Positions 1,776-38,649 of a stretch of 38,962 nucleotides of DNA are shown piece after piece. The notes under the pieces were generated by a model. It worked only from the letters and a program-made list of their open reading frames with translations. It did not search any database and had not been told where the DNA came from. Numbering within the stretch: the first letter of the stretch is position 1; each line of letters starts with the position of its first letter. The DNA lies in NCBI GenBank assembly GCA_012798435.1, contig JAAZNF010000053.1, forward strand, positions 1 to 38,962. The letters run 5' to 3'. The translations under genes were made by a program, and so were the position numbers. The DNA comes from Myxococcales bacterium (GTDB taxonomy: Bacteria; Myxococcota; B64-G9).

Positions 1776-3557
1776 ATGCTCCGACGATTTCTTCTTGTCC
1801 TTGCCGTGTTCGCGGTTCTCGGGTGCTCGGAAGGCTTTCAGTCGTTCGAGCCGCCTTTCCTGGCGGGGGCGGGCGGGCTCGCGGGCGTGGTCGAGATCGT
1901 GCCCCCCGCGCTCGTCATGGGCGAATCTCGCCCGGCCTCGATGCCCGACAGCGCACGCTTTTCGGGCTTTCTGTTCGGGACCGGCGAACCTGCCACGGTT
2001 CAACTCGAGCTCAGCGCAGCCGACCACGAGGTGCGCTCGGAGATCGCGCTCTACGGCCCGCGGGACGCACGGGGGCTCTTCGGCGCCGCGCGGTTCTTCT
2101 CGGCCGGGGAGGGCAAGGCCGGGCTCTTCGACGTGTCTCTCGACGGCGCGGGAGAGTACCTGGTTCTTGCGCGGGTCGCGGGAGGCGCGGGCGTAGCCTT
2201 CGCGCTGTCGTACGATTGCAGCGCCGGTTGCGCCACGTCTTCCTGCCCGGTGCGGTTGTGTGGAAACTACTGCCCATCCGGCTTCGTGTTCGAGAACGGT
2301 TGCCCCACCTGCCAGTGCGCCGTGGGTTGCACAAGCGACGCCGGCTGTGCCCTGGGGTTCGTGTGCCGCGATGGGATGTGCCAGGCCGAGGACCCCTGTA
2401 GCTGCCCCGGCGAGCAATACGTGCCGGTGTGTGGCGCGGATGGCCGGACCTACGCCAACGCCTGCCGGCTGGCGTGCGCCGGGGTGGCGCTACAGTACAC
2501 GGGCCCCTGCCACAGCGAGTGCTCCGTCGACGCGGATTGCCCCGCCGGCATGGCCTGTCTGGCCGGGCTCTGCCGGGCAGCCTGCGCCTGCGAAGGCGAG
2601 CCCTACCAGCCGGTGTGCGGCACCGACCGGCGCACCTACGCCAACCTGTGCGAGCTGCGCTGCGCGGGCGCGGCCCTGGCCTTCGCCTGTCGCTGCGACG
2701 CCTACCTGCCGAGCGAGATCTGCGGCAACGGGCTCGACGACGACTGCGACGGGCTGGTCGACGAGGGGTGCGGCGCGTCCTGCGCCTCCGACGCCGACTG
2801 CGCGGCGAACGAGTTCTGCGCCGGTGGGACCTGCATCCCGGGCAGCGCCTGCGCCACGGACGCGGATTGCCCGGCGGGGCAGGTGTGTCAGGCGGGAACG
2901 TGCCGCTTGCCGTCGGGCTGCCAGGCGGAGGCCTGCGACGGGATCGACAACGACTGTGACGGCATGGTGGACGAGGGCTGCGCCGCCTGCCGCGCGGATT
3001 CGGACTGCGCGAGCGGCCAGAGCTGCTGCGCCGGGCGTTGCGTCGATGTACAGAACGACCGCGCCAACTGCGGCCGTTGCGGCAACGCCTGCGGCGCCGG
3101 CGAGGAATGCCAGTCGGGCCTGTGCCGGACGAGCTGCGAGGACCGCGACGGGGACGGCTACTGCGCAAGCGTCGATTGCGACGACGCCGACGCATCCATA
3201 AACCCCGGCGCGGCAGAGATCTGCGGCGACCGGCTCGACAACGATTGCGACGGGTTCGTCGACGAAGGGTGCGGGGTGTGTGTCTCCGACGCCGACTGTG
3301 CCGCAGGGCAGAGCTGCTGCGACGGCGTGTGCCTGGATCTTTCGAGCGATCCCGAGAACTGCGGCGGCTGCGGCATGAGCTGTGCAGCCGGCCAGGGCTG
3401 CGGCGGGGGATGGTGTACGGCGCGCTGCTCCAGCGACAACGACTGCGAAGCGGGGCAGGCCTGTCTGGACGGCCTGTGCCGCATCTATTGCCGCCTGGAC
3501 AGCGACTGCCTGTCGGGCCAGATGTGTCTGAACAACCTCTGCGTTCGCCAGCCATGA
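1776..3557 (+). CDS. Large cysteine-rich lipoprotein with Kazal-like and MopE-like motifs
   Basis: A 593-residue predicted surface lipoprotein. The lipobox VLGC gives a lipidated Cys17. Residues about 55-148 resemble a beta-sandwich PPC-like domain. The rest is cysteine-rich: eight modules of the form xDxDCxxGxxCxxGxC; two Kazal/follistatin-like segments (about 208-245 and 270-307, with PVCGADGRTYANAC and PVCGTDRRTYANLC); and three DxDCDGxVDEGC motifs (about 316-332, 387-402, 482-499) like those of the MopE metal-binding family. A DRDGDGYC segment at 456-463 resembles a calcium loop. The ATG at 1776 is chosen over upstream in-frame codons because GGAGGA precedes it and the signal peptide then begins correctly. 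It overlaps the next gene by an ATGA. The protein at 4377 is a paralogue. Adhesion, protease inhibition or metal binding are possible roles; none is shown. Confidence 0.92.
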   Translation: MLRRFLLVLAVFAVLGCSEGFQSFEPPFLAGAGGLAGVVEIVPPALVMGESRPASMPDSARFSGFLFGTGEPATVQLELSAADHEVRSEIALYGPRDARGLFGAARFFSAGEGKAGLFDVSLDGAGEYLVLARVAGGAGVAFALSYDCSAGCATSSCPVRLCGNYCPSGFVFENGCPTCQCAVGCTSDAGCALGFVCRDGMCQAEDPCSCPGEQYVPVCGADGRTYANACRLACAGVALQYTGPCHSECSVDADCPAGMACLAGLCRAACACEGEPYQPVCGTDRRTYANLCELRCAGAALAFACRCDAYLPSEICGNGLDDDCDGLVDEGCGASCASDADCAANEFCAGGTCIPGSACATDADCPAGQVCQAGTCRLPSGCQAEACDGIDNDCDGMVDEGCAACRADSDCASGQSCCAGRCVDVQNDRANCGRCGNACGAGEECQSGLCRTSCEDRDGDGYCASVDCDDADASINPGAAEICGDRLDNDCDGFVDEGCGVCVSDADCAAGQSCCDGVCLDLSSDPENCGGCGMSCAAGQGCGGGWCTARCSSDNDCEAGQACLDGLCRIYCRLDSDCLSGQMCLNNLCVRQP

Positions 3558-3967
3558 ACCGGAACACTGCACTGGTCGTCAGCACGCTCTTCTGGGGAAC
3601 GGTGGCCGCAGGCTGCAGCGGTGGGCTCTCCTCGCTGGAATCGCTGCGCCGCGAAGAGGTGCGGATGAGCCTCTCGCCCGACTTCGGCCAGCGCGGGAAG
3701 AGCGTCACGGTGACGGCCGATCTCGGCCCCGAGATCCAGTCCTCGTTGAAGGCGGGGCAAGCCTATGTCAGCCAGGTGAGCTTTGGGGAGGGGTGCCGGC
3801 TGCCGGACCGTTGGAGCCTGGATGCGGAGGGCAGGCTCGAGGTGGTGTTCTTCATCGACGCGCTGGCGCGGGAGGGCGAGCGCAAGGCCCTCATCCGCGT
3901 GACCGGGGAAAAGAAGACCTGGGAGGCCAAGGCCGCCTTCTTCGTGGTGGGAGGCGCCGGCGGATGA
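3554..3967 (+). CDS. Small lipoprotein, function unknown
   Basis: A 137-residue predicted lipoprotein: an N-terminal hydrophobic signal ends in a lipobox VAAGC (Cys21), followed by about 115 residues without further cysteines that look like a single beta-rich domain (alternating hydrophobics such as VTVTADLG, LEVVFFIDA, AKAAFFVVGG). The ATG overlaps the stop of the preceding cysteine-rich lipoprotein gene in an ATGA, so translation is probably coupled and the two products may act together. There is no separate ribosome binding site. I recognise no family; the fold could be Ig-like. Confidence 0.85.
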   Translation: MNRNTALVVSTLFWGTVAAGCSGGLSSLESLRREEVRMSLSPDFGQRGKSVTVTADLGPEIQSSLKAGQAYVSQVSFGEGCRLPDRWSLDAEGRLEVVFFIDALAREGERKALIRVTGEKKTWEAKAAFFVVGGAGG

Positions 3968-4376
3968 GAAGAGTGCTTCTTCGAGCGCCATCACTTCTTG
4001 CTGCTTATAGGTGCTGGCCATGTCAGGATTTTCTGCGGGGGGTCCGAATAGGTTGGTTCGTTCTTCCTTATTAAGGATGGTTTTCAGCCAGAGGCGACAA
4101 CAGAAGTTGTCACCTGTCGGGCGCGGTTGCACAGGGAGACCAGGTACAGATCGCCAGTCGTTTCAATCACTTGTTGAGTGCCTGCCGGCCCTGTAAACTC
4201 TGCTTGCTGGAAAAGAACTCGGGCCCGGGGTGGATATCATCGATGTGCACCAGGCCCACTTTCTAAAAACTCGATTATTGTCAGCTTGTTATCCGCAGGC
4301 CTGTCCCCGAGGACCTGCTGGCACGGCCGTTGCAAAAATCACCGGCCGTGACGGTCAACCATTCAAGGAGGATGCG
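3968..4376. other. 409-base intergenic region, less GC-rich than its neighbours, with inverted repeats
   Basis: No convincing gene is seen. The stretch is visibly richer in A/T than the flanking coding DNA. It contains GACAAC-AGAA-GTTGTC (4096-4111), a lone -10-like TATCAT (4235-4240) without a good -35, and an inverted repeat CACGGCCG (4322-4329) / CGGCCGTG (4343-4350) around an AT-rich centre, ending 26 bases before the ATG at 4377. Short open frames here have no start signals or recognisable products. It may be a regulatory leader or a decayed insertion. Confidence 0.4.
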
Positions 4377-5906
4377 ATGATGAAGCGGTGCCTTTCGGGT
4401 GTTCTGTGTTGTCTGTTCCTCGCCGCCTGCGGAAGCTCGGGGACCTCCGGCTACACGCCGCCGGACCTGGGAAAGAACGATGGCGCGCTCTCCATCTCGG
4501 ACCAGCCGCTCGCCTCGGGAGAATCCTACAGCGGGCGGTTCCCCGGCGAGGGCCGCTACCTGGGCTTCATCTTCCAAGGAGTCGCCGGGGCCGCTTACGA
4601 CATCGTGCTCACCCGCATCTCGGGCACGGACGTGCCGGCCGAGGTGGTGTATGCCTTCGAGGGCCAGACCTTTGGCGAGGCGCTGGCCTGGACCAGCGCG
4701 GACGCCCGCGAGCTCTCCATCACCGGCTGGAAGGCCCCCCGCACCGGGACCTACCTCATTCTGGTGGACGTGGCCTCCGGCCCACACACCGGGACCTTCC
4801 AACTCGCGCTCTCCTGCTCCGAGAACTGCGGCGACCCGCTCGCCTGCGCCGCCGACGCCGACTGCCCGGCCGGCATGGTGTGCTACGAGGGGCTGTGTTT
4901 CGACGGCAACGTGGAGTGCAACGCCGACTCCGACTGCCTGCCCGACGAGGTGTGCCTGCGCGGCTTCTGCGTCCAGTCCTGCCAGCCCATGGTGGAGGTG
5001 TGCGACGGTTGGGACAACGACTGCGACGGCCTCATCGACGAGGACTGCACCTCGGAGCCCTGCACCTCGGACGCCGATTGCGCGCGCGGCGAAGCGTGCA
5101 TCAACGGTCAGTGCCAGCCGGTGTGTGATTGCGCCATGAACGCCGACTGCCCGGCCGGCATGATCTGCCAGGCCTGCCAGTGCGTGCCCGGCGACTGCCC
5201 CGACGCCGACGGCGATGGCTACTTTTCCTGCCGCGGCGACTGCGACGATCGCAACCCGGCCGTGAATCCGGCGATGGCCGAGGTGTGTGGCGACGGCCTC
5301 GACAACGACTGTGACGGGATCGTGGACGACGGCTGCGGCGGCCTGCCGTGCGCCTCGGACGCCGACTGCCCCGCCGGCGAGATGTGCTGGGACGGCGTGT
5401 GCGTGCCCGGCCGCTGCGCCTCCGACCGCGACTGCGGCGCGGGTCTTTCCTGCTGCGCCGGACTGTGCGCGGACGTGCTCTTCGACCCGCGCAACTGCGG
5501 GGCCTGCGGCATGAGCTGCGCCGCCGGCGAGCGCTGCCTGCGGGGCGTGTGCACTGGTGGCGATCCCTGCCAGGGCGTCAACTGCCCGGCGGGCCAGGTG
5601 TGCCAGAACGGCGTGTGCGTACAGGAGTGCCACTGCAGCGCCGACACCGACTGCGCTGCGGGCCAGGTGTGCGTGGACTGCCAGTGCCAGGCGGCCTGCG
5701 AGGATCGCGACGGGGACGGATTCTGCGCCGGCGAGGACTGCGACGACGCGGACGCCGCGGTGAACCCCCGCGCCGCCGAAACCTGCGGGGACTCCCTCGA
5801 CAACGACTGCGACGGCCTGGTGGACGAGGACTGCGGCACGCCATGCCGCGCGGACTCGGATTGCCCCGCCGGATTGCGCTGCATGAACGGGGTGTGCGTC
5901 CGCTGA
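4377..5906 (+). CDS. Large cysteine-rich lipoprotein with MopE-like motifs
   Basis: A 509-residue predicted surface lipoprotein, paralogous to the product at 1776. The lipobox LAAC gives a lipidated Cys18. Residues about 45-145 look like a PPC-type beta-sandwich (ESYSGRFPGEGRYLGFIFQG through YLILVDVASG). After it come eight or nine xDxDCxxGxxCxxGxC modules and three DNDCDGxxDxxC motifs, two of them preceded by DGDGxxxCxxDCDD segments that resemble calcium-binding loops. Unlike the paralogue, no Kazal-like segment is present. The ATG at 4377 has AAGGAG six bases upstream; an adjacent ATG at 4380 is equivalent. A strong terminator follows at 5926-5958. Metal binding or surface adhesion is an inference from the motifs. 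Confidence 0.92.
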   Translation: MMKRCLSGVLCCLFLAACGSSGTSGYTPPDLGKNDGALSISDQPLASGESYSGRFPGEGRYLGFIFQGVAGAAYDIVLTRISGTDVPAEVVYAFEGQTFGEALAWTSADARELSITGWKAPRTGTYLILVDVASGPHTGTFQLALSCSENCGDPLACAADADCPAGMVCYEGLCFDGNVECNADSDCLPDEVCLRGFCVQSCQPMVEVCDGWDNDCDGLIDEDCTSEPCTSDADCARGEACINGQCQPVCDCAMNADCPAGMICQACQCVPGDCPDADGDGYFSCRGDCDDRNPAVNPAMAEVCGDGLDNDCDGIVDDGCGGLPCASDADCPAGEMCWDGVCVPGRCASDRDCGAGLSCCAGLCADVLFDPRNCGACGMSCAAGERCLRGVCTGGDPCQGVNCPAGQVCQNGVCVQECHCSADTDCAAGQVCVDCQCQAACEDRDGDGFCAGEDCDDADAAVNPRAAETCGDSLDNDCDGLVDEDCGTPCRADSDCPAGLRCMNGVCVR

Positions 5907-7715: not shown

Positions 7716-7768
7716 CGTCTGGTGCTGCCGGGCGCCCAAGCCCCATTCCCAGATCTTCCTGGAACACC

Positions 7769-7900
7769 AGGAGCATGCCTGCATGCTCCTCATATTCGCC
7801 AATTCAGCCGAAGCCGACCGCTGTCAAGGGCGAGCGAAGCGAGTCGCAGGGCGACCGCAGGCCCTTGACAGCAAAGGTCGGGCGGAGGCTACGCGAGGGT
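7769..7900 (+). repeat. Structured intergenic repeat, copy 1
   Basis: First of two copies of a dispersed element (the other is at 35924-36056). It has a hairpin AGGAGCATGC / GCATGCTCCT (7769-7778, 7781-7790), then a larger palindrome (7806-7890) built from AGCC/GGCT, CCGACC/GGTCGG, CTGTCAAGGGC/GCCCTTGACAG and an inner GTCGC/GCGAC stem. The second copy keeps all these stems with paired changes. It lies between convergent genes (kinase, and the lipoprotein gene ending at 7953). The intergenic space 7716-7952 contains nothing else convincing; open frames through it are by-products of the repeat. Confidence 0.8.
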
Positions 7901-35752: not shown

Positions 35753-35923
35753 GCGAACGCGCCAAGCCCCCCTCCATTCCTCCCCACGGTCCTGGGAAGA
35801 AGGAGCCAGAAGATCTTCTTTCAGAAAGGGGGCAAGCCCCCCTTGAGCCCCCACCCGAAAGAACCTCGGAAAAACCTGCTGGTAAGGCAAACCGCGGAAA
35901 ACGGAAGGGCCTCTTCGATGAAG
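35753..35923. other. Intergenic DNA between the XRE regulator and the structured repeat
   Basis: No gene is seen. It holds GGGGG-CAAG-CCCCC (35828-35841), a short hairpin without a T tract, and the palindrome AGAAGATCTTCT. With the repeat copy 2 and the terminator that follow, it fills the 365-base gap between two convergent genes. Confidence 0.4.
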
Positions 35924-36056
35924 AAGAGCATGCCCGCATGCTCTTCATATCAGCAGATCCAGCCGAAGCCCGATCCCTGTCAATGGCGAGCGGAGCGAGT
36001 CGCGAAGCGACCGTAGGCCATTGACAGCACAGGTCGGGCGAAGGCTATGCGCGGCG
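35924..36056 (+). repeat. Structured intergenic repeat, copy 2
   Basis: Second copy of the element at 7769-7900, in the same orientation. The first hairpin is AAGAGCATGC / GCATGCTCTT (35924-35933, 35936-35945). The large palindrome runs from AGCC at 35961 to GGCT at 36043-36046, with CTGTCAATGGC / GCCATTGACAG and an inner GTCGC / GCGAC stem whose loop is GAA in place of AGG. Differences from copy 1 fall in matching pairs on both sides of the stems. This copy also lies between convergent genes, immediately before the terminator of the minus-strand gene. Confidence 0.82.
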
Positions 36057-36064
36057 CATGTCCG

Positions 36065-36097
36065 AAAAAAAAGCCCCTCCCGCGGGGGAGGGGCTTT
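36065..36097 (-). terminator. Intrinsic terminator of the EGF-like lipoprotein gene
   Basis: GCCCCTCCC (36073-36081) pairs with GGGAGGGGC (36086-36094) around a 4-base loop. On the minus strand the stem is followed by eight T (the A run at 36065-36072), 20 bases after the stop codon of the gene at 36118-38649. Confidence 0.9.
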
Positions 36098-36117
36098 CGC
36101 CTTCGAGTCAGGCTCGC

Positions 36118-38649
36118 TTACGGCCGGCAGGTGTCGGTGTCGGGCTTGCAGTTCCAGACTCCGCCACCGAGGTCGGTGCAGGTGCTGCCGCTCGGGCACT
36201 CGTTTCCGCCCTGGGTGCACACCTTGCCGCAGTACTTCTCGCCGGGGACCGCCACCGACTCGATGCAATTGGCGGTGCCGCAGTCGGCGTTCTGGGCGCA
36301 GATGGAGCACAGGGGGCTATCGGTGTCGGGCTTCACGCAGGCGGTGCCGTACTCGGTCTGGGAGAGCCCGATGTAGACGCACTCCATGGTGTACGCCGCG
36401 CAGTCGGCGTTGGTCTGGCACACCGCCGAGCAATACCCGGCGGTGAGGCACAGGTCGTTCGCGCAGGGAGTGGTCTGGTTGCAGGTCTCACCGGGGTTGG
36501 CGCCGTTCTGAACCGGCGTGGCGCACAGCGCCTCGATGCCGTTCACCGTACCCACGTACACGCATACCTCGGCCGGGTTGTTGTCCGCGCAGGTGGCGTT
36601 GCTGGTGCATGCCTCGGCCGAACCCTCGAACTTGATGCAGCCGCCGGTGGAGAGCGTTTCGCTCAGGCCGATGGCGGCGCAGATCATCCCCGAGGGGCAG
36701 TCGGCGTTCACGTCGCACAGGGTGGAGCAGTAGCCGGCGGTGAGGCACAGGCCGCCAAAGCAAGGAGGCGAGGTGTCGGAGCAGGCGCCACCGGCTGCCA
36801 CGCACTCGGCCGGGACGGCCGGGTCGCAGTTCTGGGAGGTGCAGACCTTCACCACCGCGGTGCCGGTGGGGTTGGTGTAGAAGTCGCACATCTCGCCGGC
36901 CGGGCAGTCGTCGTGCGCGCCGCAAGCGGTGCCGCTGCCGGGGAACCAGCGGCACACCGCGCCGTAGCCGATCTGTGTGCAGTTCTGGTCCAGGCAGAAG
37001 CCGATCTGGGTGCACACCCCGCCGGGGGCGCAGTCCTCGTTGGTGTCGCACATCGAGGTGCAGTGCCCGTCGAAGCACATGCCTTTGCAGGGATCGGGGC
37101 TGGCGTTGTCGTCGCATGCGGCGGCGAAGTCGATGGTGCCGCTGGTGGACTCGCAGGCGCCGATGATGGTGTTGTTGGGGCCCAGCGTGGGCATGCACAC
37201 CTCGCCGCTCTTGCAGTCGGAGTTGCCGGTGCAGCGGCCGGGGATGCAGGCGCCGGTGGTCTGGGTGTCGCTCACCCGCAGCAGCCCGCATAGCATGTTG
37301 CTCGGGCAGTCGGTGTCGTCCTTACACAGCGCGGAGCAGAAGTAGTCGGTGCCCGAGCCGATGCAGAAGTCGCCCCAGCAATCCTTGCCGGTGACCTGGT
37401 AGCAGTCGGAGCCGATCGGCATGCAGGTGGCGGCGTTGGCCGGGTCGCAGTTCTGGTTGATGCACACCTTCTGCACGGTGGAGGAGGCGCCCGGGGGCAG
37501 GTAGTAGGCGCAGTAGGTGCCGGCCGGGCAATCGCCGTTGCCGTCGCAGGCGGTGAGCGGGCCCTCCATCCAGTAGCACATGCCGACCGAAGCTATCGTG
37601 GTGCAGCTGGATTCCATGCAGAAGTTGATGGTGTTGCACACCATGTGTTCCGGGCAGTCGCTGCTCATCTCGCACACCTCGGAGCAGTGGTCGTTGAGGC
37701 AGTAGAAGTCCGAGCAGCGCTCGCTGGCCGGCAGGTTGTTGGCGTTGGCGTCATCGTCGCACACCGCGCCCGGGGCCAGATCGCCCAGCCTGCTGCAGCC
37801 CGGCTCCATCTTCTTGCCGTCCTTGCTGGGGAAGGGCACGCACACTTCCGGCGGCTCGCAGTCGGCCGAGCTCTGGCAGAGGGCCTGGCCAGCCAGGCAG
37901 TAGGTCTCGCCGCCGGAGATGGGCTGGCAGGTGAACGCCTTGTCCGGATCGTTGGGATCGCGGCAGTTGGTGCAGTCCGCGTCCGAGTTGCACTTGGCGG
38001 AGCACACCGCGTTGGGGTCATCGTCGCCCGCGGAGAGGCAGGGGAAGTTCGGGTCGCAGGCCGAGCTCATCTGGCAGGCGCAGGAGGAGCCGCAGGTGCC
38101 GCTCTGGTCGCCGCAAGCGCAGCCCTTGCCGCCCTTGAGACAGATGAAATAGTCGCCGCCGGCGTCCACGCAGCACATGGTCTTGCCGTCGCCGGACTGG
38201 TTGGTGCACTCGCTGTTCGACTTGCAGTCCTTGATGGTGCAGAAGCCGGTCTCCTGGCCCACGTACTTTAGGCAATAGCCGGAGCAGCACTCGGTGGGCT
38301 GGGTGCAGGTCACGCCGAGCTTGAAGCACCCGCCCTCGGGCACGCAGGCCAGCGGGCCCTGGTTGACGAAGGTGGGATCGCAGTTGCACTTGGCATAGCC
38401 GTTCTCCACCACGCAGGTGCCATGACCGCTGCAGGTCTGGCCGGTGCAATCGATGGGGATGGCCTTGCACTCCAGACCGTCGGCGTAAAAACCGCTCTCG
38501 CAGTTGCAGGCCGCCTGGCCGCCGTTGTCCACGCAGGTGCCGTGGCCCGAGCAGGTGATGTCCTTGCAGACGTCTTCCGAGGAGGCGCAGCCGCCGGCGA
38601 GCGCGAGCAACGCCACGCAACACAACCCGAAAAATACGTTCCGACTCAT
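36118..38649 (-). CDS. Large cysteine-rich lipoprotein with EGF-like domains and internal duplication
   Basis: An 843-residue predicted surface lipoprotein. The lipobox LAGGC gives Cys21. Two EGF-like domains follow (about 28-61 and 68-102, each with CSGHGTCV and CNCxxxF), then about 740 residues of disulfide-type modules, with nearly one cysteine per ten residues. A block of about 200 residues is duplicated: 297-499 and 512-709 carry the same order of elements (DCPxxxxC, GFC/NFC, TACxxxxDCPAGxxC, VCxxQNCDP, CxGLCLTAGYCS or CIGSGTDYFCS, DCPSxMxC), and a partial third copy follows at 723-771. The ATG at 38649 has GGAGG upstream. A role in adhesion or matrix is a guess from the domains. Confidence 0.93.
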   Translation of the reverse strand: MSRNVFFGLCCVALLALAGGCASSEDVCKDITCSGHGTCVDNGGQAACNCESGFYADGLECKAIPIDCTGQTCSGHGTCVVENGYAKCNCDPTFVNQGPLACVPEGGCFKLGVTCTQPTECCSGYCLKYVGQETGFCTIKDCKSNSECTNQSGDGKTMCCVDAGGDYFICLKGGKGCACGDQSGTCGSSCACQMSSACDPNFPCLSAGDDDPNAVCSAKCNSDADCTNCRDPNDPDKAFTCQPISGGETYCLAGQALCQSSADCEPPEVCVPFPSKDGKKMEPGCSRLGDLAPGAVCDDDANANNLPASERCSDFYCLNDHCSEVCEMSSDCPEHMVCNTINFCMESSCTTIASVGMCYWMEGPLTACDGNGDCPAGTYCAYYLPPGASSTVQKVCINQNCDPANAATCMPIGSDCYQVTGKDCWGDFCIGSGTDYFCSALCKDDTDCPSNMLCGLLRVSDTQTTGACIPGRCTGNSDCKSGEVCMPTLGPNNTIIGACESTSGTIDFAAACDDNASPDPCKGMCFDGHCTSMCDTNEDCAPGGVCTQIGFCLDQNCTQIGYGAVCRWFPGSGTACGAHDDCPAGEMCDFYTNPTGTAVVKVCTSQNCDPAVPAECVAAGGACSDTSPPCFGGLCLTAGYCSTLCDVNADCPSGMICAAIGLSETLSTGGCIKFEGSAEACTSNATCADNNPAEVCVYVGTVNGIEALCATPVQNGANPGETCNQTTPCANDLCLTAGYCSAVCQTNADCAAYTMECVYIGLSQTEYGTACVKPDTDSPLCSICAQNADCGTANCIESVAVPGEKYCGKVCTQGGNECPSGSTCTDLGGGVWNCKPDTDTCRP

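Follow-up and report, generated by a model that had tools for sequence, protein, structure and literature searches.

A dispersed REP/BIME-like palindrome with a cloverleaf tip in a Myxococcota genome, and matching tips in Actinomycetota and on plasmids

The window, i.e. the whole stretch of 38,962 nucleotides that was analysed, carries two copies of a palindromic repeat family that is dispersed over the intergenic regions of its host genome. The fold of this repeat is maintained by covariation, and its tip recurs in a second phylum and on plasmids. We consider the chances about even that the element is a REP/BIME-like palindrome, probably non-autonomous and mobile, that a factor recognises in a folded, single-stranded DNA form. 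The conserved part would be a cloverleaf tip formed by one DNA strand, on an outer stem that would be free to vary as long as it stays paired. A protein would recognise the fold of this tip in the single-stranded state, be it at replication forks, during rolling-circle replication of plasmids or upon conjugative transfer, and such recognition may have spread copies within genomes and onto plasmids. The copies would persist mainly downstream of genes, where they are likely to do little harm. GNA loops and tandem G.A mismatches are known for their high stability in single-stranded DNA, so that selection on this dispersed bacterial repeat would plausibly act on folded DNA and not on RNA. RAYTs are the partners of many such repeats, and an element without a RAYT link bears on how REP-like repeats can spread without one. 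Owing to the plasmid copies, in turn, a function in single-strand replication or transfer could be tested directly in laboratory plasmids.

The two copies in the window and the host repeat family

The elements of the two copies are as follows, with positions counted from the first nucleotide of the window.

7752..7893, + strand: core element of copy 1, matched by the 143-position covariance model R1 (cmsearch 150.5 bits, E 5e-29; structure counts)
7769..7790, + strand: left hairpin of copy 1, AGGAGCATGC CT GCATGCTCCT (sequence; covarying pair at columns 21-40, GC 14 and AU 11)
7806..7890, + strand: right palindrome of copy 1, with outer stem AGCC..GGCT and (G)CCGACC..GGTCGG(GC) around the tip (fold; pairs 58-142 to 71-129)
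7823..7869, + strand: cloverleaf tip of copy 1, stem GTCAAGGG/CCCTTGAC which closes three mini-hairpins (R2, a tip model derived from other copies)
35859..35916, + strand: left module B, a purine-rich GAAAAACCTGCTGGTAAGG.. unit joined to copy 2 (match E 3e-4)
35907..36049, + strand: core element of copy 2 (cmsearch 155.6 bits, E 5e-30)
35923..35946, + strand: left hairpin of copy 2, GAAGAGCATGC CC GCATGCTCTTC (sequence; structure counts)
35961..36046, + strand: right palindrome of copy 2, AGCCGAAGCCCGATC..GGTCGGGCGAAGGCT (fold; structure counts)
35979..36025, + strand: cloverleaf tip of copy 2, GTCAATGG C-GA-GC(GGA)GC-GA-G TCGC(GAA)GCGA CC(GTA)GG CCATTGAC (R2, 71.4 bits)

The two copies are homologous, with 84% identity where they were aligned by BLAST. 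The paired changes that an earlier note on this DNA had listed were confirmed, namely AGG/CCT versus AAG/CTT and AAGGG/CCCTT versus AATGG/CCATT, as was the constancy of the inner GTCGC/GCGAC stem around a loop that reads AGG in one copy and GAA in the other. That note had located the element correctly, but had drawn its ends slightly short; the shared core spans 7752-7893 and 35907-36049, and modules related to the repeat mosaic described below were found further left of it. Relative to dinucleotide shuffles, the RNA folds of copies 1 and 2 have z-scores of -5.85 and -5.27 on the + strand, where every shuffle folds less well than either copy, and of -4.47 and -3.88 on the - strand.

A second hairpin of the CTTCCTG..CAGGAAG type (7752-7775 and 35907-35930) overlaps the left hairpin and would compete with it. 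Pairing in this alternative hairpin (columns 3-8/18-23) amounts to 68%, which is above the 61% seen upon permutation.

The host genome is a Myxococcota draft, presumably metagenome-assembled, of 5.05 Mb that is 97% complete and consists of 129 contigs. When it was searched with copy 2, 40 matches were scored from 101 candidates. The covariance model R1 was built from 28 aligned host copies, and its use on the same genome gave 72 matches, 59 of which exceeded 80 bits, i.e. at least 59 strong copies. Such a covariance-model search of the full genome had been proposed in the earlier note, and the stem covariation noticed there holds across the 28 copies. Indeed, 96.4% of the cells are paired in the RNAalifold structure of these copies, compared to 91.7% after shuffling and 28-42% after sliding. 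Two-sided changes were observed at 12 pairs (7.0 in the shuffled alignments) and in 59 cells (17.1 in the shuffled alignments), and none of 500 shuffles attained the observed values for pairing and two-sided change. About 29 switches between Watson-Crick pair types were counted on a FastTree tree, a number that recombination between copies could inflate.

It could be argued that such compensatory changes need no selection and stem from a decaying repeat in which imperfect palindromes are corrected by template switching. Quasi-palindrome correction by template switching is known in bacteria, and the about equal numbers of G.U and A.C on the + strand (24 versus 19) would be in line with it. However, template switching would erase mismatches, whereas 67 of 68 cells retain the tandem G.A mismatch in the first mini-hairpin of the host tips, and GNA loops are conserved in both phyla. 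We therefore consider this explanation very improbable. Nor does the near equality of G.U and A.C speak for the + strand being selected as RNA.

The covariation in the 28 copies and a non-coding pattern of variation bear out the view that the fold is conserved rather than the sequence or a protein. A frame EHACML..P* is open in nearly all copies. Protein coding was nevertheless rejected, because codon position 2 varies most and position 3 least, and because in copy L018 the left hairpin is intact although the peptide read from it is largely different.

Many copies carry a left-hand module, which is either A, a GC-rich hairpin, or B, a purine-rich unit. Module A was found without the core at four host loci (L166 and L170-L172) and module B at three (L178-L180), which indicates that the host holds a mosaic of several interleaved extragenic repeat families. 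The earlier suggestion of a REP/BIME-like dispersed element is supported.

No copies were detected with R1 in 38 relatives, all of which belong to genera other than that of the host. Rfam gave 0 matches at the gathering score, and none even at an E-value of 0.1 in one search, and no publication on sequences of the element was found in the openly accessible literature, in agreement with the earlier impression that no named element matches. IMG/VR gave no match and phages only a weak partial match in Halorubrum, and a phage or provirus origin was rejected on these grounds.

Placement relative to genes

Genes were called with a purpose-written gene caller that was trained on 1.02 Mb of the host and reached a coverage of 88%. 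Among the 59 strong host copies, 27 are located in convergent, 29 in tandem and 2 in divergent gaps, and the remaining one lies at the edge of a contig. No copy has its centre within a gene, and overlaps with gene ends do not exceed 17 nt. Both copies in the window lie in convergent gaps (7715>/<7953 and 35752>/<36118), as previously noted, but the claim that the element is found only between convergent genes fails for the 58 copies with both neighbours called. What the earlier note had proposed to look for, an enrichment in convergent gaps, is nonetheless evident: among gaps of at least 20 nt, a copy is present in 27 of 75 convergent, 29 of 296 tandem and 2 of 111 divergent ones, with p-values of 1e-9 for the convergent enrichment and 4e-5 for the divergent depletion, each versus the rest. 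The actinobacterial chromosomal copies resemble the host copies in this respect, with 17 convergent, 19 tandem and 2 divergent placements at a gene-calling coverage of only 59%. Across 111 neighbour genes, 158 Pfam families were seen, each in at most 5, and no flanking gene family is shared. A regulon-specific element, or a cis-regulatory RNA of one gene class, was rejected because the neighbours have no common family.

The position downstream of genes and the avoidance of divergent gaps would suit a transcribed RNA element, the palindrome of which ends or protects mRNA 3' ends as a stabiliser or factor-dependent terminator, as has been proposed for REPs. The same applies to the strong RNA fold and to the GNA loops on one strand. 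However, a T-run follows no copy, G.U is not in excess over A.C, and the transcript-strand bias in tandem gaps is not significant at these small counts (18:11 in the host and 29:19 when pooled). Moreover, the loops are triloops, and not the GNRA or UNCG tetraloops of RNA. The element is also absent from the family relatives and, therefore, not needed for the genes of these relatives. Altogether, we regard a function as transcribed RNA as unlikely. Two further suggestions of the earlier note appear wrong or weak for related reasons. A small RNA is disfavoured by the G.U and A.C counts and by the lack of a significant orientation bias to the transcript, and a bidirectional terminator by the fact that no copy has a T-run and that copy 2 is adjoined by a separate terminator at 36064-36100. 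Intrinsic termination by the element itself is unsupported, as an intrinsic-terminator T-run was found within the element in 0 of 58 element-bearing gaps.

The terminator-like hairpin at 36064-36100 (AAAAAAAAGCCCCTCCCGCGGGGGAGGGGCTTT) is preceded by A8 and followed by TTT, and directly adjoins copy 2. Among the host gaps scanned, few have an intrinsic terminator of this type. The window also encodes cysteine-rich, internally repetitive proteins (2395-5900 and 36118-38616), and the protein beside copy 2 (36121-38616) has no Pfam match.

The cloverleaf tip, its occurrence in other genomes and on plasmids, and possible partners

The cloverleaf tip with its GNA loops, as well as its occurrence in another phylum and on plasmids, were absent from the earlier note. 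An 8-bp stem (GTCAAKGG/CCMTTGAC) closes a four-way junction of three mini-hairpins, h1, h2 and h3, which have GNA loops and covarying stems. The G of the loops is present in 91% and the A in 92% of the cases in 34 unique host tips, with a free middle base, and both are present in 96% in 24 actinobacterial tips (51-mers). Copy 2 has GNA in all three loops, and copy 1 has GAA in h1, a deviant AGG in h2 and GCA in h3. The mismatch in h1 of the host tips, a tandem G.A/A.G, has a covarying C-G/T-A pair on one side and two G-C pairs on the other. At this site, the stems of many actinobacterial tips are fully Watson-Crick (TGAGC/GCTCA, TGGGC/GCCCA, TGCGC/GCGCA, TCGC/GCGA). The stems of both h1 and h2 are replaced in the tip of Myxococcus stipitatus, which reads CGCTC(GCA)GAGCG, CCGC(GGA)GCGG and GCC(GGA)GGC. 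The third mini-hairpin is smaller in the host family than in the actinobacterial tips. That the structure is kept across two phyla while most of the stem sequence has changed is strong evidence for the recognition of shape.

The GNA loops are carried on one strand. The tip folds under energy models for RNA as well as for DNA, and these do not separate the two. For the actinobacterial tip, the DNA fold tool assigns equal energies to both strands and is therefore uninformative on the strand in use. DNA mini-hairpins with GNA loops are extraordinarily stable (PMC4686876, citing Hirao 1994 and Yoshizawa 1997), and palindromes II and III of Streptomyces telomeres, which are bound by Tap as single-stranded DNA, have GCA-type loops with sheared G:A closure (PMC4513846). 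For these reasons, we favour folded single-stranded DNA as the form in which the element would act.

The exact host-tip pattern was found in only 11 stretches in 85k genomes, which understated the spread of the tip, since a covariance model later found more. Exact matches were present in Amycolatopsis arida, A. bullii and Nocardioides caldifontis, where the tip is centred in long palindromes with outer stems unlike those of the host and unlike each other. R2, for which actinobacterial tips formed part of the training set, matched 48 of the 249 genomes from the A. arida family, presumably the Pseudonocardiaceae, several of them with at least 15 copies; these counts are lower bounds, 24 candidates being scored per genome. 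In the phylum of the host, R2 matched nothing but the host itself and plasmid pYRE of M. stipitatus.

A search of plasmids with the host version of the element gave no match, and the actinobacterial version matched on actinobacterial plasmids. On Pseudonocardia plasmids with a rep gene, the tip is oriented as rep. It is located about 242-250 bp upstream of the ArdC gene of Kocuria pCE7, and its three copies on pYRE (NZ_CP102771.1; 36200, 42257 and 45565; L272) are located 247-250 bp upstream of the genes for ArdC, ParB and a hypothetical protein. The Streptomyces plasmids contain a unit of about 190 or 340 bp that is sharply bounded and common to otherwise unrelated contexts, and inverted dimers of about 345 bp were found at 5 of 6 fetched loci in another genome (G792). 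Neither excision nor a clean empty site or a target duplication was detected; the search for empty sites on plasmids gave unit boundaries only, so that the mobility of the element is an inference. A parent transposon was not found.

The region around the first tip copy of pYRE has 7 matching places in the plasmid, and an upstream unit appears to be repeated. In G792, a tandem array with periods of about 23 nt lies beside an inverted dimer (L218:1596-1913), and a tip copy on a Streptomyces plasmid has an IS110 transposase fragment on one side and an IS1380-like piece on the other (L284:2350-2950).

In 23 of the 27 outer-stem clusters of actinobacterial and plasmid tips, an nAnnnT-type hexamer follows the TTGAN of the tip stem after 15-18 nt, a spacing that is reminiscent of -35 and -10 regions. 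The chance of such a hexamer is about 9% per cluster in GC-rich sequence, although the count is not independent, because the clusters share ancestry. The actinobacterial hexamer 17 nt after TTGA is not explained by simple selfish spread and, accordingly, counts against our preferred explanation. Its fixed spacing would suit a single-strand origin or single-stranded DNA promoter (sso, ssi or Frpo-like), the fold of which mimics a duplex promoter and primes complementary-strand synthesis or early plasmid transcription, with derivative chromosomal copies. Such a function would also be consistent with the rep orientation on the Pseudonocardia plasmids, with the positions upstream of ArdC on pCE7 and of the three genes on pYRE, and with the precedent of Frpo in leading regions (PMC11541004). 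However, the host family has no -10-like motif, the chromosomal copies avoid divergent, promoter-bearing gaps, and many plasmid copies have no such gene nearby. An origin or promoter of this kind is therefore possible for plasmids, but quite improbable for the element as a whole. The absence of the hexamer from the host and the smaller third mini-hairpin suggest that the host and actinobacterial elements might differ in function.

The host genome contains two truncated Y1_Tnp (RAYT-like) genes at contig ends, L121:1453-1752 (C75) and L122:4-312 (C125). Together with the resemblance of the inverted dimers to REPINs, these genes could point to a RAYT-driven REP, moved by a Y1/HUH REP-associated transposase. 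Yet, no element is present within 1.5 kb of either gene on the visible side, where another palindrome is found, and Y1_Tnp is absent from 8 of 10 element-rich genomes, compared to 7 of 10 genomes without a reported match. A RAYT is thus an unlikely partner of the element, and we attach very little credence to RAYT-driven movement. The placement in Actinomycetota and the host, the inverted dimers, the recurring plasmid units and the absence of Y1_Tnp together suggest a REP-like repeat that spreads without a RAYT.

Each of the truncated Y1_Tnp genes is adjoined by another palindrome with AAATCCGGAC, and a separate second REP-type system may exist in the host.

Beyond the preferred explanation of a mobile palindrome recognised as folded single-stranded DNA, we tentatively propose that the element might represent a class of DNA element that has not been described before. 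This would be a three-GNA cloverleaf that works only as folded single-stranded DNA and serves as a recognition site, for transposition, as a single-strand origin or as a single-stranded DNA promoter, for a conserved partner that is shared by Actinomycetota and Myxococcota, and it would be carried between them by plasmids.

Comparison with known systems

BOX, ERIC and MITE-type repeats are like the present element in being modular, intergenic and palindromic, with a length of 100-150 bp and no ORF. A terminal inverted repeat plus target duplication was not found for the element. Its plasmid units have sharp ends.

Hairpins with GCA-type loops are shared with the telomere palindromes of Streptomyces, a likeness by description rather than alignment, but these palindromes are located at the ends of linear replicons whereas the element is dispersed in the replicon interior. 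Like Frpo, a promoter of leading regions that is formed by a folded single strand, and like ssi and rolling-circle single-strand origins (PMC11541004, PMC3583192), the element has a predicted single-strand fold on plasmids and, in the actinobacterial copies, a -35/-10-like spacing. It differs from these in being mostly chromosomal and located behind genes, and in the host copies being free of a -10-like motif.

The closest likeness is to REP, BIME and REPIN elements, with which dispersed extragenic palindromes in tens of copies, a position downstream of genes, mosaic modules, inverted dimers and covarying stems are shared. REPs are mostly found between convergent and unidirectional genes and rarely between divergent ones (PMC3733652), and the present element is placed likewise (27/29/2 in the host and 17/19/2 on actinobacterial chromosomes, for convergent/tandem/divergent). 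A REP unit measures 20-40 bp, compared to a core of 143 nt here. In most GTAG families, more than 90% of the members have a GTAG tag at one end (PMC3733652), whereas the element has no consistent GTAG/CGTC tag, GTAG being seen by eye at the minus-strand 5' end in about 11 of 28 copies. What further sets the element apart from REP, BIME and REPIN elements (PMC3733652, PMC3116915) is that it has no RAYT link and that it carries a cloverleaf tip with three GNA loops, which is common to phyla and plasmids.
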